From Eledone cirrhosa (taxonomy: Eukaryota > Mollusca > Cephalopoda > Octopoda > Eledonidae): 64,000 bases of DNA. The stretch is from the NCBI GenBank assembly GCA_964016885.1, contig OZ024743.1:170395333-170459332 (forward strand), written 5' to 3'. Below the pieces are notes generated by a model, which saw nothing but the letters and a program-made list of their open reading frames with translations, did not search any database and was not told the DNA's origin. The translations under genes were made by a program, and so were the position numbers. Of this stretch, positions 7,409-54,590 are shown piece after piece (positions within the stretch are counted from its first letter, which is position 1; every line of letters begins with the position of its first letter).

Positions 7409-7462
7409 TAATGCTCGGATGACTCCAAACGAGAGTTTGGAAGAAACGATTGTCAGCTATTA
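7409..7462 (+). ncRNA. Candidate hammerhead ribozyme, family 4
   Basis: Order: helix I 5' strand AATGCT, core CGGATGA (consensus CTGATGA, one change), helix II TCCAAAC-GAGA-GTTTGGA (7 bp), GAA, helix III ACGATTGT (self-complementary with one G-U), cleavage base C giving a GUC site, then AGC and TATTA pairing back to helix I with one bulge. The same layout occurs at 50515-50570 and 13236-13295. Activity is inferred, not shown. Confidence 0.6.
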
Positions 7463-7599
7463 AATGATTTGAACACAACTTTGATAATTGTATAATTTAT
7501 TTATTTTCCTGCTCTGTAAAACAACTGATGTTCATACATTGTGCTATTTCTCTTACTGGTAATAAGGTAATTAAGAAATTACTGACCTTCCTGTTTATA

Positions 7600-7734
7600 G
7601 TTGTTTATACTATATACATAACTATAAATAGTATTTATAGTTATATATATATATATAACTATTATAGTTATATATATATATAACTATTATAGTTATATAT
7701 ATACATAACTATTTATAGTTATGTATATATATAA
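7600..7734. repeat. Palindromic minisatellite
   Basis: Repeats of a TATAACTATTATAGTTATA-like unit, each itself a palindrome, between the foldback element and the PLE. Confidence 0.85.
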
Positions 7735-7789
7735 AATTGAAAAAGTGAAGAATAACATGGTCAACAGTACAAAAAAGGGGATTTATTTA

Positions 7790-7900
7790 CAGTCTAACAA
7801 TTGTTTCTCTGATTAAGTTGTCTAAAAATTGCTGAACACTATAAGCAGTGCCACTCAATTTCAAATACGATGTTAGCTTAATCAGATCATCAGAAACTGT
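7790..7900 (-). ncRNA. Hammerhead ribozyme in PLE-1 pseudo-LTR (family 3)
   Basis: Read on the minus strand: helix I strand ACAGTTT, exact core CTGATGA, helix II TCTGATTAAG ... CTTAATCAGA (10 perfect pairs closing a loop of roughly 60 nt), GAA, helix III ACAATTGT (8-nt palindrome), cleavage base T, then AGACTGT, which pairs with ACAGTTT over 7 bp with one G-U. All invariant parts of a type I hammerhead are present. Known role in PLEs: RNA self-cleavage during element processing. The palindromic helix III would be stable only between two copies. Confidence 0.75.
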
Positions 7901-8663
7901 TACAAAAATATATATAACCAGTAAATTTACAAATTCAAATTACATCATCAATAATAATATTAATAATAAAGATAGAGAGAGAAAAAAGAAATAAAGGAAA
8001 GAAAGATAGAAAAAGAAAAAGAAAGAAGAAGATTACAGAGAAAACATAGAGAGAAGAGAATAAATGGATAAATGATGATAGAAAGAGGAGAGACGTGCTT
8101 AAGGAGAGAAAGAACAATAGAAGGAAAATAATATCAACAATAAATGAATAAACGTTAATACATGAATAAATGTAAATAAAAATAAATAAATAAATTACAT
8201 CTAATATGATAATAAATGGTATAAAATGTGAGAAATGAAAAATGAAAATATGAAAATAAATAAGTAAAAAAGTAAAAAATGAAGAAAATTTAAACATATT
8301 AAGATTATTGAAAGTGGTTTTTGAGAGTGGCTAAAATATAGAGATACGAAGGTATAAATATGATAATGTTAAATACATTTATGTGTGTATTGGTTATTTT
8401 AATAAATAAATAAATTAATTAGTTGTAAGTTATATTATATTATAAAATAAAATGTCAGAGATGAAATAAATTTAGGGAGAGAAATATAGAGATAAAAAGT
8501 GAAAGGTAGAGATTTATAAAATAAGAATGTAAATATAAGAGGTTTTGATGTTGTTCATTGATAGATGATGACAATTATAATAACAATGATGATGATGATG
8601 ATAATGTGATATTATAATAGATCTAAGTGGTACAATCTTGGTTATGGAATAGATAAGATGAAA

Positions 8664-10205
8664 TTAAGCTGGTCTAAAGTTCTGGAATTTGGTCGCCGTT
8701 TTATGTCGACAGAAAATAGTTCTTTCAATTTTACTGTTAAGCATTCTGTTGAAATTTAAAATTTGGAAAAGTTCCATATTACATAGACCACAGTGGGACA
8801 TACCAACTTGATAGCTTCGTCCAGCTGATTTTATATTCCATGTTTGCATCCTTGAGTTGCCAGACTTTATTGACGAGAGTCGTTGTATTTAAGAGCTTCC
8901 TGTTAATCATAGAGTGTCTATGGATGTACCACCTTTTCTTAAACACTCCAGCTGTGGAGCCAATGTAATGCCATGCTAAGGTACCTGAATTTATAGTACA
9001 TAGGTATACTATATTTGTCTCTAGGCATCTATTTTGTAAAGGACATTTGTCAGGTAGATGGCAATTACATTTAGATGCTTTCCTATGTGCCGGTTCTTCG
9101 ATATGGTTTTGTAGGTTGCTATGTACGAGCTGAGAATTGGGTTTGTTGATGTATTGTGGTGATGTGTTCTGACGTGTGTTCGGTTGCGATGATGTTATAT
9201 GCTTATGTTCTGTATTTGGTGTACTTATTTGCGGGCTACTTGAATTATAAATTCTTTTATAATTAATTTTGTGAATGTGCGATTCTATGTTATTGGCAGT
9301 GGAGTATGATAGTTTGATAGTTTTTCTATTAAAGATTTTATGATATTTATGAATTTTAGGAAAGTGTTTGTCAACCAGTTTGAAGAAAGTGTAAGGTAGT
9401 TTTGTTTTTATAGAGGAGTTAAACATTGGATTGAACCATAAGTAGTTTCTATCTCTACATCTTCTATAGTTATTAGTGGTCTTTATATTAGTATTCTGTT
9501 CAATTAATTTACGTGCTTGTTGCCAATTTCTATGTTTAGTCCTAGATTTGTTGCTTCTATAGGTATGGATAGTATTATTAATATTACTATGGATAGTATT
9601 ATTAATATTTTTTGTATCTGGTATGTATCTGAGTCGCTCTTTATGTCCTGCCTTAAGTAAAGCTATGTTGTAGTAGTTAGCGTGTTCGTTAAAAATATCT
9701 AGGTTAGAAGATAGGCGCGAGATAGTATTATTAATATTACTATGGATAGTATTATTAATATTTTTTGTATCTGGTATGTATCTGAGTCGTTCTTTATGTC
9801 CTGCCTTAAGTAAAGCTATGTTGTAGTAGTTAGCGTGTTCGTTAAAAATATCTAGGTTAGAAGATAGGCGCGAGATTCTAAGGGATATACTATGTGCTAT
9901 GGAGTTAATTATGGATCGAGGGTGAAAAGAGTTATAATCAATGTAAGCTTAATTTCCATTATTTGTATGTACTGTGTTAAGGTTCAGCGATACATCTAAG
10001 AAGTTAGCTTTTTTAGAGTTGAGATCAAAAGTGATGTTAAGGCCTAAATTATTAGAGAATTTTCTAATCTTTTTCCTTAATCTTTCTAAGTTTTGATTAC
10101 TTAGGTTTTTAGCTAAAAGTAGTGTATCGTTTCTATAAATTCCTCCTTGTAGGTTATCAGATTCCCTATGTAAGATATGTGCTATATAAATTCTGACAAT
10201 GTCTG
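8664..10205 (-). pseudogene. PLE-1 polyprotein: RT fragment and GIY-YIG endonuclease
   Basis: The minus strand first encodes RT motif C as 'GGIYRNDTLLLAKN' (PLEs normally have YRDD here), then 'HPRSIINSIAHSISLRISRLS', the PLE linker, a 51-codon tandem duplication, and 'FPKIHKYHKIFNRKTIKLSY'. After this come the CCHH-like block 'CNCHLPDKCPLQNRC' and the GIY-YIG nuclease 'WHYIGSTAGVFKKRWYIHRHS ...', ending in 'KFQNFRPA'. The nuclease nicks target DNA and the RT, related to telomerase, copies the RNA. Upstream RT motifs are missing and there are stops, so this copy cannot move by itself. Confidence 0.8.
9568..9873. repeat. 153-bp tandem duplication inside PLE-1
   Basis: Two head-to-tail units (9568-9720 and 9721-9873) differ at one position (GTCGCTC versus GTCGTTC). 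The length is exactly 51 codons, so the frame is kept. The near identity shows the duplication is recent compared with the decay of the surrounding ORF. Confidence 0.95.
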
Positions 10206-10214
10206 TAATTAAAA

Positions 10215-11672
10215 CGACATAAAGCAGCGACCAAATTCCAGAACTTTAGACCAGCTTAATTTCATCTTATCTATTCCGTAACCCAAATTGTACCACTTAG
10301 ATCTATTATAATATCACATTATCATCATCATCATCATCATTGTTATTATAATTGTCATCATCTAACAATGAACAACATCAAAACCTCTTATATTAGAATT
10401 CTTATTTTATATATCTCTATCTTTCACTCTTTATCTCTATATTTCTCTCCCTAAATTTATTTCATCTCTGACATTTTATTTTATAATATAATATAACTTA
10501 CAACTAATTAATTAATTTATTTATTAAAATAACCAATACACACAAATATATTTAAAATTATCATATTTATACCTTCTTATCTCTATATTTTAGCCACTCT
10601 CAAAAACCACTTTCAATAATCTTAATATGTTTAAATTTTCTTCATACATTTTTACTTTTTTACTTATTTATTTTCATATTTTCATTTTTCATTTCTCACA
10701 TTTTATACCATTTTGTATCATTAGATGAAATTTATTTATTTATTTATTTATTTTTATTTACATTTATTCATGTATTATCGTTTATTCATTTATTGTTGAT
10801 ATCATTAAACGGAAAAAATGAAACGAAATTTCATTTCTCACTCTTAGTACGGCTGTTACTTAAATATAAGTATGTATACGTACATACATATCTGTATACA
10901 GACGTACAGTAGTATGTATATATATATATACATGCACACATATATATATGTACGTATGGATTCACCGAACATTTATTATAATGCTCGGTGTGTTTGTAAA
11001 CAAACATCCCAAATTAAGCCGTACAGTGTCTAGCAACCATCGTTGCTCATTTGTTCAACACTGACAAAGGAACTAGTTTCAAGCTTATTAGCTATCGTCA
11101 GCAACATATACCTTCCTGCCAGATGATTGAACCTCTGAAAGTATATACTTTCCTTATGCATATTAATGGCTGAGTTAATCGGCCGGGCGCACCGAAAACG
11201 ATAAACGGAAAAAATGAAACGAAATTTCATTTCTCACTCTTAGTACGGCTTTTACTTAAATATAAGTATGTATACGTTGATATCATTATTTTCCCTCTAT
11301 TGTTCTTTCTTTCCTACGTTATTTCTCCTTATGCATGCCTCTCCTCTTTCTATCATCGTTTATCCATATATTCTCTTCTCTCTATATTTTCTCTGTATTC
11401 TTTTTCTTTCTTTTTCTTTTACTTTCTTTCCTTTCTTTCTTTTTTTCTCTCTATCTTTATTATTAATATTGAATTTGTAAATTTGCCGGTTATATATATT
11501 TTTTGTAACAGTTTCTGATGAGCTAACATCATGTTTGAAATTGAGTAGCACTGCTTCTAGTGTTCAGCAATTTTTAGACGACTTAATCAGAGATACAATT
11601 GTTAGACTGTAAATAAATCCCCTTTTTTGTACTGTCGACCATGTTATTCTTCTCTTTTTCAATTTTATTACT
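10215..11672. repeat. Right inverted arm of PLE-1, split by an insertion
   Basis: Reverse complement of 7731-8711, for example TTTTAGCCACTCTCAAAAAC and TCCAGAACTTTAGACCAGCT. It is interrupted at 10807-11276. The hammerhead motif near 11508-11610 is broken: about nine bases of helix II are deleted and GAAAC has become GATAC. Confidence 0.85.
10807..11276. mobile_element. 470-bp insertion with 74-bp terminal direct repeats
   Basis: Flanked by an 11-bp target duplication TTGATATCATT. Both ends carry the same 74-bp sequence beginning AAACGGAAAAAATGAAACG and ending AAGTATGTATACG, with one mismatch. The ends do not have TG...CA, so it is not a standard LTR. On the minus strand near 11071-11103 is CTGACGA, a small hairpin AGCT-AATA-AGCT, then GAAACTAGTT, a partial hammerhead without a visible helix I. 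Small elements with repeated ends and hammerheads (retrozymes) are known in animals. This one is not assigned. Confidence 0.65.
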
Positions 11673-11684
11673 CCAAGATAAACT

Positions 11685-11836: not shown

Positions 11837-11878
11837 TATATATATATGTATGTATATATGTATATATATATATATATA

Positions 11879-13339: not shown

Positions 13340-13527
13340 ATACATATAATATATATATATATATATGTGTGTGTATACATATATATATGTGTGCGTAAAT
13401 ACATATATATATTTATGTGTGTGTATACATATATATATATGTGTGTATACATATATATATATATATATATGTCTGTGTGTATATATATATGTGTCTGTGT
13501 GTATACATATATATATATATATATATA
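13340..13527. repeat. (TA)n/(TG)n microsatellite
   Basis: TATATG, TGTGTG and TATACA runs only. Confidence 0.9.
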
Positions 13528-13578
13528 GAATAAGGAAAAGCGAAGTAGTTTCAGATGTTCAAGTCTTTTAATAATAAT

Positions 13579-13652
13579 GCTGTTATATATATTTCAATGA
13601 CGACACTGGCCACACTGTTCTGTGTGCCAGTGTCGCGACATCGTCAGACAGC
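13579..13652 (-). ncRNA. Hammerhead-like motif, family 1, left arm
   Basis: Same as the right-arm motif but with core CTGACGA (position 7 of the core tolerates changes) and A as cleavage base. Helix I GCTGT/ACAGC and helix II GACACTGGC/GCCAGTGTC are intact. Confidence 0.6.
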
Positions 13653-14010
13653 TTGTTACATAATAAGGTTATGTTTGGGGAGAGGTAGTATTGGGACCTG
13701 TAAATACTAACACTTTTCCATCCCCACTGGCTTTCGGCTGACTGCCACAGACGGGATGGGTAGCAGTAAACTATGGTACAGGTCTGAATGGGTCATTGTT
13801 TGGCTGAGAGGGGGAACTGACCAAGCGAATTTCGTTGAAATCTGTGGTAGCTAATGGTCAACTTCCTTCGGACATGCGCCTGCGCAGACTGGTGGGGGTG
13901 AATTGGTACTCACAGGGGAACGGATGAAGAACCCAAAAGCACATACTTCGTCCATTCCCATGTCGATTCAATTTGGATTGCCTCGAAAACATAACCTTCT
14001 TATGTAACAA

Positions 14011-14084
14011 GCTGTCTGATGATGTCGCGACACTGGCACATAGAACAGTGTGGCCAGTGTCGTCATTGAAATATATATCACAGC
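14011..14084 (+). ncRNA. Candidate hammerhead ribozyme, family 1, right arm
   Basis: Helix I GCTGT, exact core CTGATGA, helix II centred on GACACTGGC ... GCCAGTGTC (9 bp), GAA, helix III ATATATAT (8-nt palindrome), cleavage base C, then ACAGC complementary to GCTGT. Extra bases between core and helix II make the junction looser than consensus. Confidence 0.65.
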
Positions 14085-14728
14085 ATTATTATTAAAAGAC
14101 TTGAACATCTGAAACTACTTCGCTTTTCCTTATTCGATATTTACTCCTTCACTCCTATGTGGAAAAAGTACGTTGAGTGCTTGAATTGAATTGCATCAAT
14201 ATTTACCCTAAGTATATATATATATATATGTGTGTGTGTACATATATATATATATATGTATACATATCATCATCATCATTATTTTGCGTCTGCTTTTCCA
14301 TGATTGCAGTTGCTGCCCATGTCTCACTACCATGCAGCATCGCACATCTCACACAAGCATCATATAACCATCCTTTCATATGCAAGGAGAAACCTTTCTT
14401 TGTCAACAGAGGAAGCAGCTTCCTAAACCTCTTCCAATCCGTCCTTATTCTAGATACTATGGCCTCGGAACACCCGCCTCCCATGCTAATCTGATCACCT
14501 AGGTACCGAAAGCTATCAACCACTTCTATAGAACCCAGCTGCATTGGAAAAAATGTGTCTATCACTGCGATTAATACTGCCCAACTTCCCTGTACATCTA
14601 CTGCATACGTAATTTTCCCTACCTGTTAGTTTGCCTGCTATCCCACTACATCTCTTGTGTACCCAAGATCCGCATTGCGTACATTTTATGGAATTTATGC
14701 CAGTTCCTTTCTTACATATCGAACATGG

Positions 14729-30000: not shown

Positions 30001-30234
30001 AAGGATGAAGATTAACATGGTTGGCTGTACAATAAAGGCTTTATTTAAAGTACTGACAATTGTTTCGTTGATCATGTGGGTCTAGAGTTCGCTAATCGCT
30101 TGATGTTGCGTTATTCGATCTCCAATACATTATTCTCCTATGGTCAACACATCAGATCATGTAGATAGCATCTTGTTGAGTCAAAAAAAGCCTCTAACTG
30201 GATTACCTATAACGATAACTTGTTATCCCATATG

Positions 30235-30269: not shown

Positions 30270-31563
30270 ATATACATATACATTTTGAGTAAAAAAGACG
30301 TGTGTCAGCCATTTTGGAGAAATATATATGTGTCATCTGATTATCACGATTTAGCTATTAAAGGCTTATTTAAATTCTACTTTGATTGAGTACTTTTTCT
30401 CATGTTTGTCAATAATACATGGGTGTGTATGTATATATTCTTTGTTTTTGTTTTGCAAAATTTCTTATCTGAAAACATGTATTGAAACAGATATTGTTGT
30501 ACTTTGTTGTACTGCCAATAAAAACACACGCATCTGTTGGTTTTCACTTCAATTTATTATAAATTACCAGTTGGTTAGTATAATAATCAGATGGTTGTTT
30601 ATTTTTTGTCAAAGCTCTTTTGACACACATTCTGTGACCTCTTCATTGACTAATTTTTATTTTGTGTCTCTCTTTGTTCTGTGCTACACCATATTGTTTT
30701 TGTGAGCTCACAATTAACTTTGTTTATTCATATGTTATATATATTTTAGTGATAACCATTATGCAACAGCTATGACCTCACCAGATAGCTAGAATTTGAA
30801 GAGAAACTGCTTTTATAACAGCGAATATGAATAAACAAAGTTAATTTTCAACCTGTTGAGTTACACTTCTTGTTTTTAAATATACTCCAGAGTAAACAGA
30901 CCCACCTGTGTACTTTGTCGAGTGCTCTTCCCTGCATACTGAAGTGTCAGTAATTAACCAACACATACTTGAATTAATGTTTATATATGTAGATAAATCA
31001 ACCAAAATATACGGCAGTGTCCAATCCGTATGAAGAACTCAATGTAATCCAAATATCATGAAAAGAAAAGATGCATTCAAAAATTTTTTCGATGAAAATC
31101 ACAGGAAAACAGAGTCAAGATAAATTAATAAAAACAATGAATAAAAACAAAGAAACAGTTCCTTATATTAAAAAATTCATCATTTTACGATCGTTTCTAG
31201 GATATATATGTGTGTGTTGGTATGTATATCATATAGATCTATGTAAAAATTTTACAAACTATCAGAGGGAATATACATACCTACACATATATATGCTGTC
31301 TTCAGAAATAATGATATTTGTTATTGAAAAACACCAACAAAGATTTAATATAATAGGTCTGTTTGGGAACAGGTTTTGAATTGGCCAATAGAAGAGTAGT
31401 AAGTGGTCAAGTTGATAGAATAGTAGTAGTAGAAATTTAATTTAGGGGTAGAAATTTAATTTAGGAATGCTGACTTCAGTTTTGAATGGAAATAATACTT
31501 TGAATGAAAAGATTCCTTTGGGGATGAAAAGAGGTCAAGCTAGTGAAATGTACACGAAAATTT
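30236..31563. other. AT-rich intergenic DNA
   Basis: No gene. A perfect 20-bp inverted repeat (TTAACTTTGTTTATTCATAT near 30716 and its complement near 30824) about 90 bases apart is the only structure noted. Confidence 0.5.
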
Positions 31564-31925: not shown

Positions 31926-32128
31926 AAGATAGCTGTAAAAGGGAAATAAAATTATGAAGTTCTCAGTAGTAAAATACTAATTATAGGTTAACTAAATTTA
32001 AAAAAAACAAAAAAAAACTAATTATAATAATTTGTAAAATAAAAGTGTATATTAATTAATATATATATATAAAGTGAAATTACAGGAGGCCAAAAATGTT
32101 GAATTTCCTTAATTATTCATTTCTGCAA

Positions 32129-32183
32129 ACACTATGCATATTTGAGCCAGGTTGTGTAAAAACCTGGTGACATCTTCAGGTGT
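32129..32183 (-). ncRNA. Hammerhead-like motif, family 7
   Basis: Minus strand: helix I ACAC, core CTGAAGA, helix II CCAGGTT-TTTACAC-AACCTGG (7 bp), CAA (consensus GAA), helix III ATATGCAT (contains palindrome ATGCAT), A, then GTGT complementary to ACAC. Two core positions deviate, so cleavage is doubtful, but all three helices are present. Confidence 0.5.
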
Positions 32184-32267
32184 ATATTGTGTACTATATA
32201 TATAAACAAATATCTACTTAAGAATTGGGAAAATTTGAAATGTGTGCTTAACAATGTAAATAACCAT

Positions 32268-32454: not shown

Positions 32455-33311
32455 AAATAACCATGATAGTTGCTCATAATAACCATAATGATAGTAGCTG
32501 AAAAAATTGGGTAAATTATCCTTGGAGATGGAAGAAAGTCAACAGAGGCACTAGGATGCAGATGCTTCAAATTTTATATATAACAGTGCACCCCTGGTTC
32601 TCGTGGTCCTGGCATTTGCGGTTCCGGTTATTCACGAAATTTTTCTTAGAACCTAACTAATAATTGTTTGTGGAAAACCACTACATATTCGTGAAATCGT
32701 AAATATCTTTTGTGATTTTTTAATGGCTCTTTTCGTGGCAATCTATATTTTTCATGTTTTTAAAAGCTAAATTATTAATAACTGTATACCGTATTTACCA
32801 ACCTACATTTTATGTTATATTTTAATGTTTATAGGCATTTTTATGGACCATGTCCAATATTCATGGTTTTTCACTCTTCGCGGGTGCTCTAGGAGTGTAA
32901 CCCCCATGAATTATAGGGGACAAGTGTATATATATATCCAAAATGGCTGACTGAATATGTACATGTGTGTTTTTTCTCAGTTTTTTGTCTGTTCCTTCCT
33001 CTTCTCACTTTCCATCTTTCTATTTCATCTTTTATTTCTTATTCTATCTTCTGATGAAGAATTAGTGTTTGAAACATAAAAACTCTTTTCCTATTATTTC
33101 AAGATTTAAACTAATATATTTCTTCATTGTACTGTGTTGTTTGCTTTGTTATTTCTGTTTACATTTTACATACACATATTTATATAAACAGAAGCATATT
33201 AACAATATGCTTCTATATGGCACAATTCCACCTCTAATGCTTGTACTTATACATTTCTCATTAGTTATGCAAATCACTTGCTTAATATTTTCTATGTTAA
33301 ATTCACTCTTT
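32455..33311. other. Intergenic, PLE-like relic near 33050
   Basis: No gene. TTCTGATGAAGAATTAGTGT then TTGAAACATAAAAACTC near 33050-33090 matches the layout at 44068 (CTGATGAAGGACTAGTGTTC GAAACG) and a weaker copy near 20285. Confidence 0.45.
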
Positions 33312-33606: not shown

Positions 33607-34998
33607 TCAACAGCAAAGTCTCTCTGGGGGTTTACGAGTTCTCTTGGACCGTCTTCGATTGTCTGGTCCATACTCTGGAACGGGCAACAAGGTCTTGGGT
33701 CTGGTCTGTCTTGGAGTTAGTGGCACGATTTCCGAGATCTCCATCGGGTGATCTGTTGCAAATTCAAAAACAGTGTCTACTGCATCACCAGGTTCATTGT
33801 CTTCCTCAGTAGTGTACCACGGTTGCAGCTGTTCCCAGTGTCGTCTCCACACCGGGCCATGAGGTATGACCTTAACGTTGAAGCAGCGAGTACCCAATGA
33901 CTTCTTAATGATTGCTGGTACCCATCGAGGATCTTTGTCTCGGCGAGGTCCGTAGTACAGTGCATACACATGATCTCCAGCCTTGTACTGCCTGGTAACC
34001 TTAGCGACACCTGCCGAGTCCGGAGTCATCTGAGACTTATATGCTTCCTTAGACTGCTTGCCTTGAGCGATGTGTGCTGGCGAGGGCAGCAGAGAATCAA
34101 TCCTTGTCCATATCTGCCGGTGATTCAAAAGTTCACTCAGAGAGAATCCACTGGATGTCGGTGTTCTCTGGTACTGCATCAAGAACTCTTGAAGTGCTCG
34201 CTTCGGCGGAAGAGAAGTCTTCCTCAGAGCTTGTTTGAAGGTCTGCACCAAACGTTCCGCTGCTCCGTTGGCAGCTGGGTGGTAAGGTGCCCCTGTCAGG
34301 TGCGTGATCCCACGTTCTTTGCACCAGCTCTGGAACTCCTCAGAAATAAAAGTTGGTGCATTATCGGTGACTAGCGTGTGAGGAAATCCGAAGTGCGCAA
34401 AGTCTTCTTCAAGCAGATCTAAAGTGGCTCTGGAGGACGTGGATGACGTAGGATGAATGCATGGATACTTGGAATAAGCATCCATGATCACCAACCAATT
34501 ACTGCCCATGAAATTTATTGCGTGGTCCAGGTGTAAGCGGCTCCACGGCTTTTCAGGTAACATCCATGGGTGAACTGGAGACTTGGATGGCTGGTTTTGA
34601 TGTTCACCACACAAATCACATTGTCGACTGGTTTTCTCTATAGCAGCATCGATACCAGGCCAATAAACAGCAGTTCTTGCCAATTGTTTCATGCGCTCCA
34701 TGCCAAAGTGTCCGAGATGCAGAAGATTGAGAATCTTTGGCTGTAAGCTATGTGGAATCACAACTCTCGATCCATGGATAAGGCATCCGTGGCAGATACT
34801 GAGTGAATCCGATAACTTCCGGAACTTATTGACTTCGTCATTGATCTCAGTATTCTTTGGTGGCCAGCCTTCACGGACGTAGCGTATCACTGTAGATATC
34901 ACTGGATCTTTCCCTGACTCTTGACGGAGGACGTTAGCATCGATAGGTTGGACTTGAAGACAGAGCTTTGATGGCGCACACCATGTCCATGTCTTCAC
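33607..34998 (-). pseudogene. Gypsy integrase
   Basis: 463 codons without a stop. Residues about 75-140 form the HHCC zinc domain ('LLHLGHFGMERMKQL ... CDLC'). The catalytic core has 'LHLDHAINF' (D), 'LVTDNAPTF' (D) and 'GAAERLVQTF' (E), the DDE triad. After it comes a GPY/F-like module ('GDHVYALYYGPRRDKDPRW ... HWEQLQPW') and a basic end 'RRRSKRTRKPPERL'. The N-terminus starts inside what should be RNase H/RT sequence and overlaps the preceding frame by 65 bases in another phase, so it cannot be made as one Pol product. The integrase itself looks intact. Closest in style to 'K02A2.6-like' Mag-lineage proteins. Confidence 0.9.
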
Positions 34999-36385
34999 GG
35001 CGACATCTGAGTCCTTTGTCGCACAGACGTGTGAGCAGACACTTTAGGTTGTTCAGGTGATCGTTTGCATCTTTCCCACTGACGAGCATGTCGTCCTGGA
35101 AGACGGCCACACCAGGTAGATCTTGAGTCAGGTTTTCCATGATCTCCTGAAAGTAACCAGGTACTGACTTGATTCCGAAGGGGAGTCGTTCCTGCAGGAG
35201 CACCCCACGGTGAGTGCTGAGTGCAAGCCTGCGTTGACTTTCTGGAGCCAGCTTGATCTGATTATAGGCGTCAGCAAGATCAATCTTTGTGTATCCGAAT
35301 CCACCTCCGAGCTTCTGCATCAGTTCCTCTGGGAGTGGCATTGGATGACGATGATCTGCAAGTTGGTCATTAATTCCCACAGAGTAGTCACCACAAATCC
35401 GTAGTTTGGGCTTCAGGTTGCCTGAAGTATGTGCTTTACGAATCGGTACCACTGGCGTTCCGTATTCGTTGAACTGTACTGGCTTCCAGATTCCTTTGGC
35501 GATGCCTTCTTCGTAACCTTTGGCCAGGTCATCACGAAGAGCAAACGGGACCGGGCGTGCCTTGTGAAAGACCGGTGTCGCGTCCGACTTGAACTTCACT
35601 TCCAGTTCGAAGTCATTAAGACATCCCAATTCTTGCTTGAAGAGATCTGGGAATTCATCACACATGTTGTGACAATCTCGTTGCATGGAAATATAGGGCT
35701 CATTTGAGGTCTTTGGATGCATCACTTCTGCACCCTCACTCTTGGCCTGGCTGTCTATGCTTTTCAATCCTAGAGCATTGTCCACGGAAATTCCCAGAGT
35801 CTGGATAGCGTTTCGTCGCAGCAAATTAAGATCAGGCATCTTGGTGACGATGTAGGGTATTGAATTCCGTTTACCGGTCGTTGGATCCTTGGTTTGGCCC
35901 ATGAAAGTTCCCAGAACGGGCAGGTCGTGCTTGCTGGCTGATTCAAACCGATGTTTGACATCTTGCAGCTTCGGTTTTCCTAATTGTTTCCAAACTGACA
36001 AGGAAACAAAATTGCCTGTAGTAGCTGTGTCCAATTCCATTGTGAAAAGTCTGTTCTGGATTGTTATTGGCACATTCAAACTATGAGTATCGTGGGGAAC
36101 TTCACCAAGGATCGCCTTGACTAGCTCAGCTTTCGTGATTCTTTTCACGTAATTCTGTGAGCGATGATTACGTTGCTGATGTTGTTTCTTTCTACACACC
36201 GCTTGCAAATGTCCCTTTTTGTCACAAAAAAGACATTTGGCTTCTTTGAAGGGGCAGTCTGTCGCTTTGTGGGCCTTTCCACATCGGTAGCACATCTCCT
36301 GGTCTGTGGAATAAGACTGCTGATGGTTCTTTTGCCGCATCAATTTCGGTGGGGAGGTGTTGTATGGACTGTGAATCGAACTCAC
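34934..36385 (-). pseudogene. Gypsy nucleocapsid-protease-RT, chimeric N-terminus
   Basis: The first ~20 codons are the antisense of the LTR edge and polypurine tract, not gag. Then a CCHC knuckle 'CYRCGKAHKATDC' with a second 'CLFCDKKGHLQAVC', a degenerate protease ('MELDTATTGNFVS' where DTGA is normal), and RT: 'KLRICGDYSVGINDQL', 'YTKIDLADAYNQIKL' (motif A), 'LPFGIKSVPGYFQEIM', 'VAVFQDDMLVSG' (motif C, FQDD). The RT ends in the palm: thumb and RNase H are deleted and the frame shifts to the integrase. A non-autonomous relic. Confidence 0.9.
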
Positions 36386-36410
36386 AACCTCATTGTTGTA
36401 TGGACTGTTA
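36311..36410 (+). repeat. Inverted copy of the Gypsy PPT/LTR junction
   Basis: 36358-36410 is an exact inverted copy of the outermost 53 bp of the LTR (36869-36921). The adjoining 36311-36357 is an inverted copy of the internal 3' end with the polypurine tract (33573-33620), with a few changes. It sits where the capsid gene should be. Confidence 0.9.
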
Positions 36411-36429
36411 AGTTTATTGGTGTCGCTAA

Positions 36430-36590
36430 TAAACTCTGTTGTTCAGAATCTCGAGCACCAAACAGTTTTATCAGTGTCCATATCTTTCTTGTGTTGTTGC
36501 ATTTGTTGTTCCTGTTGTTGCATTTGTTGTTCCATCTGTTCTCTAAACAACTTTATTAATTCGCTGTTTGTTGTTCCGCCATGTTTTTGT
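36430..36590 (-). pseudogene. Gypsy gag N-terminal remnant
   Basis: Begins 'MAEQQTAN' and continues after a frame change as 'ELIKLFREQMEQQMQQQ ... HKKDMDTD', a Gln-rich coiled-coil-like start typical of Mag-type Gag. It then meets a stop. The capsid fold is missing. Confidence 0.65.
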
Positions 36591-43749: not shown

Positions 43750-44035
43750 CAATAATGAAAGAGTGGCAGAGAAGGTGGAGAGATAAGTAAAAGAGAAAAG
43801 GTGGAGAATTCAGTCAACTACTGGGTGATGTAATATGATTCTAGGGTGTGGGTACCAATTTCTGGCAATATTCACTCTCAAATACTTTATGGTATGGTCA
43901 TTTTAAATTCATTAAACTAATGTTGTATATAAACTTATGCATATATATATTTATGTGAGAGTGTGTGGTTTTATGTAAAAGGTAAACAGATATAACAAAA
44001 ATAACAAAACAAAAAGCACAGTACATGGAAGAAAT

Positions 44036-44106
44036 ATATTAGTTGATCACTTGAAATAGCAGGAAGAGTGTCTTAACGTTTCGAACACTAGTCCTTCATC
44101 AGACAC
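44036..44106 (-). repeat. PLE-type end with hammerhead-like motif (family 5)
   Basis: Minus strand 44106-44068: GTGT, CTGATGA, GGAC-TAGT-GTTC hairpin, GAAACGTTAAG, ACAC. Helix I GTGT/ACAC and helix II hold, helix III AACGTT is a 6-nt palindrome, but two extra bases precede ACAC. Related, weaker copies are near 33050 (GAAT-TAGT-GTTT still pairs) and 20285. Confidence 0.5.
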
Positions 44107-44870
44107 CAGTATCTGTCCTTAGGGCATCAATATATGTCATCCTCGGTCTCCCTCTTCTAGTGTGTCTGTGTAGGGGATCCCAAAGGACCATTGAGTGCAG
44201 TGTCAACTCTGAATGTTGGTGAGCATGTCCAGCTAACCTCAGTCTCCTCTGTGCTACTTTCAAGCTGACTTTGGGGATTCTCATGTACAGCTCTGAGTTC
44301 TCCACCCTCAGTGTATACTGATTAATGATCAGAGCCATCCTCAGCATTCTGAGTGAGTCTTTTGGTCAGTGTCCAAGTCTCAGACCTGTACAGCAGTACA
44401 GACTCCACTGTAGCGACAAAGAGGTGAATTTTCAGGTCATTACAAAGGTCCAACTGCCACACCGACCTCAAACTGTGACACATCACCCAGGCATTGCTCT
44501 TCCTCTCCAGCACATCTGTGTTCCCAATGTGTTCTCAATCTTTGCTCCCAGATACAGAAAGTCCTCAACCAACTCTGGTGGCTTCCCACCTACATTCATA
44601 ATCTCTGGCTTTTTAATGTTCTGTACCAGATACTTCATCTTACTCTCATTCATTCTCAGCCCCACACTCCTCGACACAGTCTCCACCCCCTGCATCAACT
44701 CCTCTGCCTCCTTCACTGTGTTTGTCACCAGAACTACGTTGTCAGTAAATTCAGCATCTGATATCTTTTTAGCCTTAACTCTCCTGCTCCGAGCTAGCGC
44801 AACAGTAAAGCCCAAGTCCTGGTGTTTTTCCATTGCAAGGCGCATACAATAGTCCACTGTGATGATAATG
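44107..44870 (-). pseudogene. LINE reverse transcriptase, C-terminal part (RTE-like, LINE-B2)
   Basis: Three frames: 'DYCMRLAMEKHQDLGFTVAL ... KKISDAEFTDNVVLVTN' (motif C altered from FADD), 'SVGLRMNESKMKYLVQN', 'VEDFLYLGAKI'; then 'CNDLKIHLFVATVESVLLYR SETWTLTKRL'; then 'LRLAGHAHQHSELTLHSMVL', 'GRPRMTYIDALRTDTGV'. This is the post-palm region of an RTE-like ORF. Its missing 3' end resurfaces at 52265-52440. Inactive. Confidence 0.8.
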
Positions 44871-44995
44871 TATCTCCCTGCTTTCGCCCTTAACAGGATC
44901 TTCTGAAATTAAAAAAGAAACCAATCTGTGAACGCAAAAGTAAATATTTCGAAAAACGTTGCAACCGAAGGAAGTCAGGAAGACGATATTTTGGT
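44871..44995 (-). repeat. PLE pseudo-LTR fragment (family G)
   Basis: Minus strand TTTCAGAAGATCCTGTTAAG GGCGAAAGC, the same as in the palindrome at 52505-52800, followed by AAATATTTACTTTTGCGTTC ACAGATTGG. Confidence 0.6.
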
Positions 44996-45789: not shown

Positions 45790-46205
45790 TTCCAGGGCTT
45801 CAGCGACGTTTGCGCCGCTGAAGCCCTGGTCATTTATTCCATTATACGCATTATTCGCATTATTCGCATAGTCATTTATTTCCATTATACGATCTAGCTT
45901 CAGCTAGGATCTCCCAGTGTAACCTATATTGGGTGTGGTTGTCTTTTAGACTCCAGATATGAGCTGAAAGTGACGTCATATTCTTACTTAAAGAATTAAG
46001 AAAAGAATGGGTGTGCATGTAAAGACACTGCTTCAATTTATTGGCAGTTAACCCTATGTAGGCCCTACTAGACGTGGGTGTGTTGACCTTACATTTGTAG
46101 ACAATGTTACTGGAGAGGCATTGCCCGGATAGAGGGCAGTCAACCCGATTCCTAGAATTACAGTTAGTACTAGCTACAGGGTTGCACGTGTTACTACGGC
46201 TAGAT
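45790..46205 (-). pseudogene. Penelope-like GIY-YIG endonuclease fragment (PLE-3)
   Basis: Minus strand: 'CNSRNRVDCPLSGQCLSSNI VYKCKV' (the Cys block before the nuclease), 'RAYIGLTANKLKQCLYMHTHSF' (GIY-YIG strand: YIG present), 'LSAHIWSLKDNHTQYRLHWE ILAEARSYNG'. That is the C-terminal endonuclease typical of PLEs. After 'YNG' an AT-rich insertion with TTCGCATTA repeats interrupts it. A 14-bp inverted repeat CCAGGGCTTCAGCG/CGCTGAAGCCCTGG (45792-45829) follows. Confidence 0.75.
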
Positions 46206-46227
46206 AATTTATATTATATATATTATA

Positions 46228-46929: not shown

Positions 46930-47125
46930 TTCAAAGCACTCTACAAGTTTCCTGGAGTATAATATCAATGATATTAATAAATGGAAACTATATTTATAAA
47001 ACCATATTTATTTTATTATATATATTTCAAGGGTACCAAAAAAACTTTGGTACGCTCTCATCAGATAAAATACAAAATTTGTTTTATAATTAGTGACATA
47101 CCCGATAAACCAGACCTTAACGGTT
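46930..47125 (-). repeat. PLE pseudo-LTR fragment (family 2)
   Basis: Matches 54420-54590 over its whole length (shared ACTGTTAAGGT / AACCGTTAAGGT, CCATTTATTAATATCATTG) and 51990-52140 in part. Carries the hammerhead motif listed separately. The left side continues into a PLE-like 3' region. Confidence 0.7.
47010..47071 (-). ncRNA. Candidate hammerhead ribozyme, family 2a
   Basis: Minus strand: helix I ATTTTAT, exact core CTGATGA, helix II GTACCAAA ... TTTGGTAC (8 bp), GAA, helix III ATATATAT, A, then ATAAAAT, an exact 7-bp partner of ATTTTAT. Two sister loci keep the helices with different bases. Confidence 0.65.
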
Positions 47126-47491
47126 CAGGATCCATCTCAGCCTTCTCTCCTGCACCCCGCAACTTATCCCTCTTATACCCAGTTTCTTTCTCAACTCGTC
47201 CATGCTTGGTCATTCACACACATTGACATTGCACATCCAACGGAGCATACTTGCTTCATTTCTCTCCACCGTCGCATATCCTCTGCAGTTACTGCCCATG
47301 TCTCACTAATATGCAGCATCGCGCATCTCACATAGGCATCATATAACCGTCCTTTCGTATGCAGGGAGAAACCCTTCTTTGTCAACAGAGGAAGCAGCTC
47401 CCTAAACTTCTTCCAGCTCATCCTTACTCTAGATACTATGGCCTTGGATCTCCCTCCCATGCTAATCTGATCACCTAGGTACCAGAAGCTA

Positions 47492-49862: not shown

Positions 49863-50605
49863 GTTAAAGAGACATTGAGGAAGTAGTTTTGAGAAAGGAA
49901 GAGTGCAATAACAATTCATATGCAGGCATGTGGATAGTGTAACTGCGTAAGTTATATACATGAGGAGGAGACAAGCAAGGCATATATAGATGAATAAATA
50001 CTGCACTTTAAGCAAATATGTTAATGTATTAGAATCTATGGTGGATGTTGAATGTTGATGGTGTTCGAATTAATGTGTGTTGAGAAACACAGTTTTTGCA
50101 GACTTTTCCATGACATGTGTTGAATTAAATTTTAGTTAATGTTTATATTGAATGTTTTAAGTTAGTTAGATCAATGGATTGTAAATTAGTCTTAATGAAT
50201 TCATATTCATTTTCTATATTTGATCAGCTGTTAAATTTTCAATCGTTAATTTCCTCAATGCCTCTTTAATATTTGGACTATTCCCTTGTTTTAAATGTTG
50301 CATGTATTCCACTCCGTGCTTTTGATTTTAATTTAATTTGAATCTGAATTTGAATTTGCACTTGAATGTTTGTACAATTATTGTACAATTCTCGTAAAAT
50401 AAATGTCACATCCATTCCACCCTGTAAATACGAAACTGTTGCTCACAACATCAATTTATATGTATATATATTATTGTTCAGTTGAATAGGATGTTAATTA
50501 TATGTGCAAACATTGATAATGCTTGGATGACTCCAAACGAGAGTTTGGAAGAAACGATTGTCAGCTATTAAATGATTTGAACACAACTTTGATAATTATA
50601 TAATG
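49863..50605 (+). repeat. Dispersed repeat, non-foldback form of family 4
   Basis: Matches the centre and right arm of 6620-7505 in one continuous orientation and contains an extra 180 bp (about 50140-50325) deleted there. It appears to be the ancestral arrangement. The 3' end AATGATTTGAACACAACTTT GATAATT is shared. No ORF. Confidence 0.75.
50515..50570 (+). ncRNA. Candidate hammerhead ribozyme, family 4, third copy
   Basis: Helix I AATGCT/AGC-T-ATT, core TGGATGA, helix II TCCAAAC-GAGA-GTTTGGA, GAA, ACGATTGT, C. Same as 7409 except for the first core base. Confidence 0.55.
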
Positions 50606-50689
50606 TATTTATTTATATATATATAAATATATATATATATATTTATATGTATGTGTATATATACAGTATGGCCTTACCGTGGGAAATGG

Positions 50690-51240
50690 ATGGAACCGCG
50701 ACAGAAATTGCAACTGCCAATACAGGGGACGCTGCCCCTTAGAGGATACTGCTTGACTGATAGGGTTATATATATGCACTGTAACTAGCCACAATAGCGT
50801 TAAACATTATATAGGGGATACCTCCGGCCCATTCAAAATTAGGTTTCGAACACATCTCCACTCTTTCACAAATAAGAAATTAAGACACTCTTCTTCGCTC
50901 GAGGACTACATCACATCATTAAAGGACTTAAACATCAGCTTCTCCACGCACTGGAATATTGTCGGCAGGGCTGCACCATACAACTTCAAGAGGAAGTGCG
51001 ATCTTTGCCTCATGGAGCTCTACCACACCATAACTGCACCCCACAAGCTCATCAACAGCAGAGCTGAAACAGCGATAAGTTGTACACATCGCTTTAAAAT
51101 ATCCTTCTTCAGATGGGTTAAGGATGAGGAGTGAAACCGTGTACCGGATCTCCCTGCAACAAGTTTTAATACCCCGGTGGGCAGGCGCTGCAAAATAACA
51201 CCCAGAAAACTAACCATGCATACCAGACCCAGCCTCAAAC
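50690..51240 (+). pseudogene. Penelope-like GIY-YIG endonuclease (PLE-2)
   Basis: Plus strand: 'NRDRNCNCQYRGRCPLEDTA' (Cys block), 'KHYIGDTSGPFKIRFRTHLH SF', 'LRHSSSLEDYITSLKDLNIS' and 'WNIVGRAAPYNFKRKCDLCL'. These are the GIY-YIG signature and the conserved C-terminal part of PLE proteins. One stop lies in the Cys block and another after 'RWVKDEE'. The RT part upstream is replaced by a TA tract. Its 3' flank leads to the hammerhead-like motif at 51509, as expected for a pLTR. Confidence 0.8.
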
Positions 51241-51508
51241 GACCCAGGCAAACAGGTGCGGAAAAACAAACATCTCAAAATAAGCGTTGATTACATGACC
51301 CTGTGCGTATCGACAATGGTAAGGTTGTAACCACATCTTGTAATGGATAAAAATTTGTCCGGGAAAGACTGCCCTAACACCGGCCAGAGTTACCTCCCTT
51401 GACCTGCTCCAAAATCAAAACACGCTATTTTTGCGAGCAATGAATCTTGACATGAACCTAACCCCAAAAACTCTTTCCGAGCAATGTAAGGAACATTTTT
51501 GGTTATTT

Positions 51509-51552
51509 ATGCCCTTGAGAAGCCCAACTGGGCGAAACGTACGTAGGTGCTG
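51509..51552 (+). ncRNA. Hammerhead-like motif 3' of PLE-2 (family 8)
   Basis: CTTGAGA in place of CTGATGA, helix II GCCC-AACT-GGGC, GAA, helix III ACGTACGT (perfect 8-nt palindrome), A, GG pairing with CC before the core. It lies about 300 bases after the PLE-2 coding relic. Confidence 0.5.
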
Positions 51553-51671
51553 TTTTAAATAAACATGTTTTAACGGTCTATTCTCCGATTTCTTACTTTT
51601 CCACGTGTGTATATATATATATATATATAAATGTAATGAAGGAGTAACCAATCGTCCTTGTTATCCTTTCA

Positions 51672-51707
<36 letters not shown>

Positions 51708-51786
51708 CGAAGGAAATGTGGTAAGGAACCAGGTGGACCATAACGCACCAAAGTACTCAATACTTAGCGTAGTAGAGTGGGTAATA

Positions 51787-51900
51787 GGAACGAGTAGGAC
51801 CCCGACGGCTGAGCTCAAGCCGTTTCGACGGCTAATTCTGGACTCCAGAATTAGCCGTCGAAACGGCTTGAGCTCCGCCGTCGGGGTCCTGCTCGTTCCT
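51787..51900. repeat. Near-perfect palindrome, 56-bp arms
   Basis: AGGAACGAGTAGGACCCCGA ... TCTGGA and its inverse meet at a 1-3 bp centre, with only two or three differences. GC-rich in TA-rich surroundings. Contains GCCGTCGAAACGGC. Probably an inverted pair of PLE pLTR ends. Confidence 0.9.
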
Positions 51901-51936
51901 ATATATATATATATATATATATATATTTAAAAGTTA

Positions 51937-52270
51937 AACAAGGTTCAATGAATACATCAAAGAATGAGTTTTACAATAGATTGGAAGCACTCAACAGTTA
52001 AAATGGTTTCCAGAGTTATTAATATTAATTCAAAATATTAACAAAATAGATATTCTTGTGATCAATTATATTTTATTATACATATTTCAGAGGTACTGAG
52101 TTAAGTTCAACAGTACGTCCTCATCAGATAAAATAGAATGATGCATGACATAGTAGATGGTTAAGATTCAGTCATGGTAGCCATGACTGAATCTTAACCA
52201 TAAATGAAATATGTATAATAAAATATAATTGATCACAAGAATATCTATTTTGTTAATATTTTGAATTAAT
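51937..52270. mobile_element. Foldback PLE-type element (family 2b)
   Basis: Outer arms of about 70 bp (near 52024-52092 and 52200-52270: AATATTTTGAATTAA, TTGATCACAAGAATATC) enclose a second, perfect 21-bp palindrome ATGGTTAAGATTCAGTCATG G around TAG at 52150-52194. The left half carries the hammerhead motif, and the right arm starts exactly after it. Confidence 0.75.
52070..52134 (-). ncRNA. Candidate hammerhead ribozyme, family 2b
   Basis: Minus strand: ATTTTAT, CTGATGA, helix II GTACTG ... CAGTAC (6 bp), GAA, ATATGTAT, A, ATAAAAT. Helix II differs from family 2a (GTACCAAA/TTTGGTAC) but is still complementary. Confidence 0.65.
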
Positions 52271-52445
52271 CTATCTATCTATCTAAGGCGGGTAAAATTC
52301 CCGAGATCCATGGACGAGTTCTCTCCAGCGGTCTCTGTCCCTCATTATCGCTGCCATATCCTGCATCTCCAACAGACCAGTGTCTGTCCTTAGGGCATCA
52401 ACATATGTTAACCTTGGTCTTCCTCTTCTAGTGTGTCCATGAATT
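52271..52445 (-). mobile_element. 3' end of LINE-B2
   Basis: Minus strand encodes the end of the ORF after 'RRGRPRLTYVDALRTDTGLL', '...RDRDRWRELVHGSREFYP' and then a (TAGA)n tail. It overlaps the last part of the copy at 44107, so together they define the 3' end of that family. Confidence 0.7.
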
Positions 52446-52461
52446 AATATGTATATTTATA

Positions 52462-52463
52462 TA

Positions 52464-52512
<49 letters not shown>
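52462..52512. repeat. (TA)n microsatellite
   Basis: Uninterrupted TA. Confidence 0.95.
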
Positions 52513-52517
<5 letters not shown>

Positions 52518-52800
52518 TAAAATAACAGATTAAAGTTTAAGCAAAGAATCGTTGCTTTCACCCTTAACGGGATCTTCTGAAACTAACAAAGTCAATCTGT
52601 AAACGCAGAAGTGGATATTTCAAAAAACGTTGCAACCGGAGGAAGACAGGAAGACGATACGTCTTCCTCCGGTTGCAATGTTTTTTGAAATATCCACTCC
52701 TGTGTTTACAGATTGACTTTGTTAGTTTCAGAAGATCCCGTTAAAGGTGAAAGCAGCGATTCTTTGCTTAAACTTTAATCTGTTATTTTAATAAATATTT
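52505..52800. repeat. Long palindrome of PLE pLTR family G
   Basis: Arms of about 140 bp (TTTATTAAAATAACAGATTA ... GGAAGACAGGAAGACG and its inverse) around a centre of a few bases. The plus-strand half (52709-52781) folds hammerhead-like: CAGATT and AGTT upstream pair with AACT and AATCTG downstream, core CAGAAGA, hairpin ATCC...GGT, GAA, and AAGCA...TGCTT as helix III, H17 = A. Two core bases deviate from CTGATGA. Confidence 0.85.
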
Positions 52801-52834
52801 GCTCTACAGTTCTTATATATTTGATATATATTTA

Positions 52835-52890
52835 TCCTTATCGAGCCCTCTTTGGAATTTAGTCTTCAAATTTATTATTATTACTATATA
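52835..52890. repeat. Short shared end sequence
   Basis: ATCCTTATCGAGCCCTCTTT GG, then TTAGTCTTCAAATTTATTAT, found again at 61938-62000 in front of an (ATT)n run. Confidence 0.65.
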
Positions 52891-52909
52891 TATATATATG
52901 TATGTATGT

Positions 52910-53860
52910 ATTCATTTCATTTCATTTCATTTGAGTTTGAGTCCATGCTCAGGCCAAGTCGAAGACTCCACCCTCAGAGTCTGGTGTGGTTGCCAGGTTG
53001 GATTCTCTGTTTAATTTTGACATGTGTAGGAGCGAGTTTGAGTCAGTTTGTGCTCATTGTGTATATCCTGGGAGATGGGGTTCATCTCTAATGGTGCTTA
53101 AGTATCTATCCAGCTGCAATTTGAATGATTCCACACTGCATCCTGATAGATTTCTGACATGTACCGGAATGGAGTTGAATAGTTGTGTCCCTCTAACCAA
53201 CAGACTTGACTCTCGCAGGGTTTTTGCGGCCTGGCCAGCCCTTTTGTTGATTGGTGGTAGCTGGCAGCGTCTTCCGTGGCGCAGTGAGTGGTAGGTTTTG
53301 ATACCAAAGTTTGGCACCTTTTGCTCTATCATTTTCCAAATGTATATAATTTGGTATCGCTCAAATCTTCTTTCTATTGAGTACATCTTCAAGGTTCTGA
53401 GTCTTTGCCAATAGTCCAGGTCCCTCGTTTCTGAGAAGTATGAGGTAAAATTTCTTTGGAGCGATTCCATCTTAGATAGTTGGCCCTTTGTTGTTGGTGA
53501 CCACAACTGAGAACAGTAGTCAATCCTCGGAAGTATCATACTGTTCCAGAGGGTTTTCATTGTTGAGGTATCTCTTGATTTGCAGGTGTGCAAGATCCAC
53601 CCGCTGTACTTTCTTGCAGTAAGACAGACTGAGTCAAGGTGTTCTCTGAATTTTAGGCTGGTTCCCATGTGGATGCCTAAATCTTTCACACACTGTTTTT
53701 CCATTATTTGTTGTCCTGATGGGTTTCTGTAGTTTGTTGTATTTTTCAGATTTTGATCTGTTCCGTAACGAATTAGTTCAAACTTCTTATCATTGAACAA
53801 CATGTTGTTTGTTTCCTGCCATTTGTGGTTAGGTCCTTTTGTAAGGCCTCTGTATCCACC
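52910..53860 (-). mobile_element. Jockey/CR1-like LINE, 5'-truncated (LINE-C)
   Basis: About 950 bp with an ORF of 249 codons and, at its 3' side, a (GAAAT)n tail (ATTTC on the plus strand near 52915-52932), which is the usual short tail of the element. The 5' edge is cut by a TATG minisatellite. Confidence 0.85.
53054..53803 (-). pseudogene. LINE-C reverse transcriptase C-terminal region
   Basis: An open frame of 249 codons. It starts right after the RT palm: '[14 protein letters not shown]', 'VKDLGIHMGTSLKFREHLDS' (the KDLGI block after motif D), 'GWILHTCKSRDTSTMKTLWN', 'LPRIDYCSQLWSPTTKGQLS', 'YWQRLRTLKMYSIERRFERY', 'LFNSIPVHVRNLSGCSVESF KLQLDRYL'. It lacks the catalytic palm, so it is not an active enzyme, but having no stop in 250 codons marks a rather young copy. 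Frequent in cephalopods and cnidarians. Confidence 0.85.
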
Positions 53861-53861
53861 T

Positions 53862-54030
53862 GTATATATATATTTATATGTATGTATGTATGTATATATA
53901 TATATATTTATATGTATGTATATATATATATTTATATGTATATATATATATATTTATATGTATATATATATATATTTGTATGTATATATATATACATATA
54001 TATATTTATATGTATGTATATATATAGTTA
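53862..54030. repeat. (TATA/TATG)n minisatellite
   Basis: TTTATATGTATGTATATATA-like units, about 20-30 bp, repeated seven times. Confidence 0.95.
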
Positions 54031-54419
54031 TAACTCATAATTGATATATAAACAACTAATACATACGCAATTTATTAATATATATAGATATTTATATACA
54101 TATAACCTATCCTAATGTAATAAGATAAAAATACTTACAACCATAATTCTTCATATAATTCTAATTGATTATATATACTATATTATAACTCATAATATAG
54201 GTAAATAAACGTTGCCCCCCAAATTAACGTAAATACCAGCCCTTCTTCTTTTCTCTTCTTTCCTATGCATACAATAACTTATCATAATTATTTAAATTTT
54301 TCATAGCGTCTAAAATAACTTTTTTTCATCCCTTTTACATAAACCTCATTTGCATACTCATCTTAATAATTTGAAATATCTGAGTTTTCTTTCTTCTCTT
54401 CCCTTCACTATCCAGTGAT

Positions 54420-54590
54420 AACTTGAACTGTTAAGGTATATTATCCTTGGTTATGTCAAAATTTATAAAACACACCTCGTATTTTATCTGATGATAGCAT
54501 ACCAAAATTGTTGGTACCCTTGAAATATATATAATAGAATAAATATGGTTTTATAAATATAGTTTCCATTTATTTAATATCATTGTATAT
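54420..54590 (+). repeat. PLE pseudo-LTR fragment (family 2c)
   Basis: Plus-strand equivalent of 46930-47125 with the hammerhead motif at 54481-54540. Confidence 0.7.
54481..54540 (+). ncRNA. Candidate hammerhead ribozyme, family 2c
   Basis: ATTTTAT, CTGATGA, helix II TACCAA ... TTGGTA, GAA, ATATATAT, A, ATAGAAT (a G-U replaces A-U in helix I). The 5' helix-II flank CATACC lost one pair compared with 2a. Confidence 0.6.

Follow-up and report, generated by a model that had tools for sequence, protein, structure and literature searches.

What kind of element carries the short, divergent repeats with a hammerhead-like core that are scattered over a 64,000-nucleotide (nt) stretch of the Eledone cirrhosa genome, and how could motifs with so small a helix III work as ribozymes? 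The whole stretch that was analysed (C4:170395333-170459332, called the window throughout) lies in a genome of 2.98 Gb and 1582 contigs. An earlier interpretation made from the letters alone (the sequence-only reading) had listed eleven sites sharing one hammerhead architecture and had suggested that they belong to Penelope-like elements and are cleaved as RNA dimers. Our comparison of sequences makes it probable that the sites are minimal type I hammerheads in the pseudo-long terminal repeats (pLTRs) of Penelope elements with a GIY-YIG endonuclease, and in derivatives of these elements without an open reading frame (ORF), and that they act as dimers. The set adds well supported and unusually varied further members to the published Penelope dimer hammerheads.

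Hammerhead sites in the window

The window was scanned for the following elements in order: a helix I strand, CUGANGA, a helix II of up to 130 nt, GAA, a self-complementary block, H17 and the helix I partner. Seven sites were found with scores of 34.1-42.1, and they form five families, namely A1 (two sites), A2, B (two sites), D and I. In control sequences derived from the window (100 order-3 Markov, 100 order-5 Markov and 100 local shuffles), the maximum scores were 26.5, 31.9 and 34.3, respectively, while the reversed window gave 21.6. Local shuffles yielded 0.01 matches per sequence at a score of 32 or more. Five of the seven strong sites outscore all 300 shuffles, and both family B sites (34.1) are outscored by one shuffle (34.3). 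These scores largely support the identification of the repeats as hammerheads.

A second scan, blind to palindromy, left the length of the block free between 4 and 20 nt, with A as its first and T as its last base, and required GAA, A15.1, U16.1 and H17. The identical seven sites rank first, with scores of 28.9-36.9; the best of 100 shuffles reached 27.0 and the next window site 23.5. All seven have the type I features CUGANGA...GAA, an H17 that is not G, and A15.1-U16.1. Since this core is partly imposed by the blind scan, the real test is the excess of sites over the shuffles.

The A1 site at 47009-47072 on the minus strand scores 42.1 (36.9 in the palindromy-blind scan). Its helix I is TATTTTAT/ATAAAATA, and it has the core CTGATGA, a helix II of 29 nt with a C·C mismatch at pair 4, and GAA followed by the helix III block ATATATAT and A as H17. 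The second A1 copy, 54480-54541 on the plus strand (score 35.3), is related to the first through a 171-column alignment with 46962-47127, and its helix I, ATAGAATA, still pairs via T-G. At the A2 site (52069-52135, minus strand, score 38.5), helix III is ATATGTAT with one G·U at its centre, and helix II again has C·C at pair 4. Self-comparison places this site within a self-inverted unit, 52024-52270, whose right arm starts within the hammerhead; another inverted repeat, 52157-52201, which is 93% self-inverted, lies ahead of that arm. The family B site at 14011-14084 on the plus strand (score 34.1) has the helix I GCTGT/ACAGC, a helix II of 45 nt with C·C at pair 4, the helix III ATATATAT and C as H17; its divergent inverted partner, 13579-13652 on the minus strand, has the same score, and the two lie in an inverted repeat (13520-13676 and 13987-14143, 96%). 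The D site, 7789-7900 on the minus strand (score 40.0), combines the helix I ACAGTTT/AGACTGT with a 10-base-pair (bp) helix II base in a helix II region of 79 nt and the helix III ACAATTGT. Lastly, the family I site at 31178-31313 on the minus strand (score 37.9) has the helix I CATTATTT/AAATGATG, a helix II of 101 nt with C·C at pair 4, and the helix III ACGATCGT.

Five of the eleven sites listed by the sequence-only reading, those near 7790, 14011, 47010, 52070 and 54481, are among these seven. The other six are core-altered (7409 and 50515), weak (32129 and 51509), broken (44068) or spurious (52709). Its statement that there are seven or more such repeats holds in number, as seven strong sites exist, but two of these, 31178-31313 and 13579-13652, had been missed. 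Further sites absent from that list lie at 30051-30159, 11070-11102 and 6663-6707, and all five are on the minus strand.

The check that had been proposed for these claims, a covariance-model search, found no Hammerhead_1 match in the window. The Rfam scan of the window returned nothing at the gathering score; at E values up to 10, no hammerhead was among the best 150 of 156 matches, and scans of three short pieces around 47009, 7789 and 14011 gave no hammerhead. Elsewhere in the genome, 14 Hammerhead_1 loci exceed the cut-off (74 candidates scored), compared with 0 in 14 control genomes. The window sites have the core and helices I and II in common with Hammerhead_1 (RF00163) but, lacking a match to it, are filed here as a minimal variant and not as canonical members. 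Since the Rfam scans missed them, counts of such ribozymes in animal genomes are probably too low. One family recovered by the Rfam search (L083-L090) reads ATTGCC CTGATGA GTCCTAAATAGGAC GAA ACATTGT C GGCTAAT, and L083 is adjoined by an inverted copy.

Helix pairing, palindromic blocks and proposed pairing as dimers

The claim that the helices keep their pairing while their bases differ is borne out. Across the five families, the sites' own strands pair at 25 of 25 positions in helix I and 34 of 40 in the helix II base. When strands are swapped between families, 2.9 of 5 helix I and 3.7 of 8 helix II base pairs form, and of 120 permutations the observed assignment alone reaches its total. Because the sites were found via pairing, the shuffles are a cleaner control than these swaps, and A1 and A2 have a common helix I. 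Less circular evidence comes from families aligned by sequence, where the putative pairs change together. Between A1 and A2, helix II has two compensatory changes, A-T to G-C and G-C to A-T. The helix II base of D differs from that of the decayed family J by T-A to G-C, C-G to T-A and T-A to C-G, with one further pair broken in J.

A C·C mismatch is retained at helix II pair 4 in 36 of 41 A1, 4 of 4 A3, 49 of 51 B, 14 of 14 I and 1 of 2 A2 site counts, or 104 of 112 in all, with overlapping loci doubly counted; it is found in 0 of 19 in family D. The pairs neighbouring it change between families A1, A2, A3, B and I. The mismatch is undescribed in the literature searched, which consisted of parts of papers and excluded both founding papers (2014 and 2017).

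The scan that does not score palindromes picks an 8-nt block at all seven strong sites, and six of the blocks are Watson-Crick palindromes while the seventh (ATATGTAT) has one G·U, in agreement with the short palindromic helix III previously proposed. By way of background, 14 of the 246 window 8-mers that follow GAA, start with A and end with T are palindromes, the sites themselves counted. The sites thus possess the self-complementary block, and no long closed helix III, of minimal Penelope hammerheads. The scan was extended at a cut-off of 25.5 to the window and 104 genome loci (245,645 bases), chosen by similarity to the window families or to Rfam and therefore not a random sample. It gave 139 sites, some counted twice where loci overlap, in 11 clusters. 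Going by the best member, eight clusters have a palindromic block, which in one of these clusters is 7 nt long and built around a central base; two have a block with one G·U, and one, the single 16-nt case L097, has no palindrome. Both the bases and the length of the blocks differ between clusters (ATATATAT, ACAATTGT, ACGATCGT, ATGCGCAT, ACTAGT, ACTAATTAGT, ACATTGT). The best scores of the ACTAGT, ACATTGT, ACTAATTAGT and L097 clusters are only 26.1-26.6, close to the shuffle maximum; ACTAGT and ACATTGT are each supported by three or four sites, and ACTAATTAGT and L097 by a single site. Hammerhead-like sites with the 10-nt palindrome ACTAATTAGT were noted at loci L126 and L128.

A palindrome that drifts in sequence and length yet mostly stays a palindrome is what pairing between two copies would predict. 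We propose that each RNA provides helix I, the CUGANGA/GAA core and helix II, and that helix III is the short self-complementary block, of 8 nt in the window's strong families, through which two transcripts, or two tandem copies within one, would pair. The core of either copy would then form helix I with its partner and cut the partner after H17, so that the pair makes up a double hammerhead whose helices I and III act in trans. Cutting of tandem or read-through transcripts would yield element RNA of unit length, with a 5'-OH at one end and a cyclic phosphate at the other. In an energy prediction that leaves core contacts unscored, the double-hammerhead dimer is as stable as the cofold optimum at 31178 and 1.7-7.2 kcal less stable than the optimum at the remaining six sites. 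Comparative and energetic evidence together are consistent with cleavage as dimers.

The sequence-varying palindromes and the retained C·C mismatch are possibly new. It is conceivable, and we hold the idea tentatively, that the sites form an undescribed subclass of obligate double hammerheads, with a selected and drifting palindrome of 6-10 nt and with the C·C of families A1, A2, A3, B and I as a peripheral contact that replaces the usual loop-loop interaction. If self-complementarity is indeed selected under drift, this would amount to comparative proof of dimer function.

Penelope elements, genome copies and alternative explanations

Families A1 and D occur as divergent inverted repeats flanking Penelope-like reading frames with reverse transcriptase (RT) and GIY-YIG domains. 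By sequence comparison, the D element contains part of a Penelope-like ORF at 8782-9948 on the minus strand, running from the end of the RT to a C-terminal GIY-YIG endonuclease. A further RT part, identified by protein comparison, follows in a separate frame at 9952-10245 on the same strand, with YRND where homologs have YRDD. The ORF is flanked by terminal repeats that bear hammerheads, 7731-8138 and the inverted copy at 11276-11668 (plus strand, 83% match); the hammerhead in the latter has no helix II 5' strand. Long elements with hammerheads at both ends were also found at L151 and L152. Two more GIY-YIG fragments were detected by tblastn with the first, at 45875-46213 on the minus strand (E 4e-15) and at 50757-51131 on the plus strand (E 3e-13). 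Direct support for the Penelope origin previously suggested extends to two families, A1 and D. Close inverted pairs are divergent, that is, outward-pointing, in 18 of 18 cases, as are all 13 B loci that have sites on both strands. Within the Penelope ORF, a 153-bp tandem duplication (9568-9876; two copies, 99% alike, 51 codons) was noted.

Family B also forms tandem arrays of two or three units of 1297-1321 bp at four places (L153, L132, L135 and L138). The 9-kb array region L153 (G000:C2:232127000-232136000) holds no ORF longer than 122 amino acids on either strand, and it also contains one inverted B copy. These arrays are a possible source of long, retrozyme-like circular RNA.

Numbers of genome copies obtained with DNA queries are lower bounds, as about the best 40 of 1016-2568 first-look candidates were scored. 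Among the matches listed there are at least 45 for A1, 41 for B, 42 for D, 40 for E, 42 for C and 47 for I, six of the last being weak and internal. Individual copies are frequently damaged. The hammerhead is nevertheless present at a score of 24 or more in 29 of 30 A1 loci and 30 of 30 B loci, and the motif occurs in 19 of 20 fetched D copies and 12 of 12 fetched I copies. Conservation of the motif within families is mixed. In A1, helix I, the core, GAA and the block vary by 0-0.9%, H17 by 3.2% and helix II by 3.5%, compared with 3.1% in the 68 nt upstream and 1.0% in the 59-nt tail, and in family I almost all positions are conserved. Within the 30 nt that follow H17, AATAAA was seen 4-12 nt 3' of the predicted cut in five of ten families (A1, D, J, K and F) and ATTAAA in two more, a pattern noticed post hoc; cutting would remove this polyadenylation signal.

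PMC7761336, PMC11167929 and PMC10085705 cite Cervera and de la Pena (2014) and Lunse, Weinberg and Breaker (2017) for minimal type I hammerheads in Penelope elements. According to its title, the 2017 paper reports that Penelope hammerheads cleave as dimers, and PMC7761336 states that they may do so and describes their role as unknown. The window sites resemble these ribozymes, as known via the citing papers, in their type I core, open helix I, reduced helix III and location in pLTRs, with dimer action proposed or shown there, but they differ in having varied, mostly 8-nt palindromes and helix II regions of up to 79 and 101 nt. The hammerheads of newt and axolotl satellites or retrozymes (PMC6155905, PMC7229834) are likewise similar, having a weak helix III and a palindromic tetraloop, and there dimers cut better than monomers; those satellites, however, are ORF-less tandem repeats of 330-350 bp, whereas many sites here are divergent inverted pairs and A1 and D have Penelope ORFs. 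The Penelope elements of PMC3846280, which have inverted pLTRs, likewise show a GIY-YIG endonuclease, inverted repeats in divergent (head-to-head) order and palindromes where the inverted copies meet; the main text of that paper does not contain the word hammerhead, and the window ORFs have a YRDD-type RT motif. The diversity of hammerheads in the window, which the sequence-only reading had thought notable, is not unprecedented, given 16 hammerhead families in one coral genome (PMC7229834).

If the copies acted as monomers, each 8-nt block would fold back into two base pairs capped by a loop of 4 nt, an arrangement found in some amphibian hammerheads, and its palindrome would be incidental. 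Every 8-nt block found here fits such a stem and tetraloop; yet the inner four bases would need no self-complementarity and have it nonetheless, with different bases, in most clusters, and palindromes of 6 nt and, in one weak case, 10 nt occur too, which leaves this explanation improbable. We consider it highly improbable that the inverted repeats are the ends of DNA transposons or foldback elements with the hammerhead appearance as a by-product. Although many sites do lie within inverted repeats, and the one near 52709 is exactly such a false site, single arms of unrelated families retain the core, GAA, H17 and the pairing of the helices, and the bodies of the A1 and D elements encode Penelope RT and GIY-YIG. 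Family B above all might instead consist of retrozymes, ORF-less tandem repeats that move via hammerhead-made circular RNA. Its arrays of two or three units at four places, without a longer ORF in the 9-kb region, have this form, but the unit of about 1.3 kb is far above the 150-450 bp given in PMC7229834, and B has inverted copies that are divergent as in Penelope elements, with Penelope protein homology near 3 of 30 loci. A retrozyme nature of some families is thus rather unlikely, though it deserves consideration.

Similar weight is due to the view that the ribozymes are relics, which came down with the pLTR, are now under little selection and play no part in mobility. Several observations that speak for relics or otherwise weigh against functional dimeric hammerheads in Penelope elements have to be set out together. 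Changes at U4 of the core weaken hammerheads, and family C lacks this U in all 15 copies read (12 with C, 3 with G). Family C is young, with 97-99% identity in the 40 full matches that were scored, and its spread without U4 may therefore not need activity. The D motif is more variable than its flanks, with 7.5% in the core, 9.5% in the helix II 5' strand and 4.1% in the helix I 5' strand against 2.8% upstream and 3.0% in the tail; CTGANGA is kept in just 14 of 20 copies, and changes in helix II often lack a compensating partner. This variation argues against selection acting on the family at present. In family B the helices are conserved and the block and GAA are invariant, but the 26 nt upstream vary by just 0.5%, so there is no contrast, and the B core varies by 5.1%, chiefly at the free N7 position. 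Penelope protein homology lies within 1.5 kb of 10 of 30 A1, 3 of 30 B and 0 of 8 Rfam loci, figures that have no random-locus control, and no target-site duplication is evident by eye in the flanks, whose boundaries lie in AT repeats. In addition, the Anolis (lizard) Penelope element PAc inserts in vitro without a hammerhead, and its cleavage requires protein (PMC11167929). Against relics stand the A1 motif positions other than H17, which vary at least threefold less than the 68 nt upstream although the 59-nt tail is similarly conserved, and the palindromes maintained across clusters. We accordingly regard relics as a minority view and continue to favour minimal Penelope hammerheads acting as dimers. 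With many families in one genome, some copies 97-99% identical, palindromes that differ and one young family with an altered core, comparison can serve to test both the dimer hypothesis and whether cleavage is needed, and family C bears on whether cleavage matters for spread.

Core-altered, weak and rejected sites

The family C site at 7413-7457 on the plus strand (score 26.4) has the core CGGATGA and the helix III ACGATTGT. Its divergent inverted partner lies at 6663-6707 on the minus strand, and a third copy, found by alignment and by the scanner, lies at 50521-50565 on the plus strand. Core position 4 is G in all three window copies and C (CCGATGA) in all 12 genome copies read of the 16 fetched.

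A decayed hammerhead at 30051-30159 on the minus strand (family J, score 25.0, weak) is homologous to D (blastn of D against J, E 4e-22). The site at 11070-11102 on the minus strand, a decayed copy of family M, is also weak (score 23.9) and reads CTGACGA TAGCTAATAAGCTT GAA ACTAGT; copies of this family elsewhere in the genome (L134 and others) have helix I. Two further sites do not rise above the level of shuffles, which yield several such matches each. One is the family F site 3' of a GIY-YIG fragment, at 51513-51547 on the plus strand (score 19.7), where the scan reads the core TTGAGAA and the helix III ACGTACGT; the other, at 32126-32186 on the minus strand (score 19.9), has the core CTGAAGA and CAA for GAA.

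Family E is present in the window as a repeat at 43975-44105 and 33049-33172, with an extra A before helix II. In the truncated copy at 44060-44112 on the minus strand (best local score 15.6), listed near 44068, the reading frame of a long interspersed nuclear element (LINE) meets the repeat where helix I should begin, and the helix I strand is missing. Genome copies have CTGATGA in all eight aligned (14 fetched) and GAAACGTTAAGA in five, which suggests that family E is a minimal hammerhead whose helix I pairs UCUU with AAGA and whose palindrome, ACGU, is 4 nt long.

The candidate near 52709 was rejected, as its maximum score is 15.8, it is without a proper core, and it lies inside a 362-bp self-inverted repeat. 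This foldback unit, 52474-52835, is 88% self-inverted, gave rise to the false site and has relatives at 4057-4192 and 44875-44988. The window also contains, at 33610-36442 on the minus strand, a retrotransposon of the long terminal repeat (LTR) type with RT and integrase domains.

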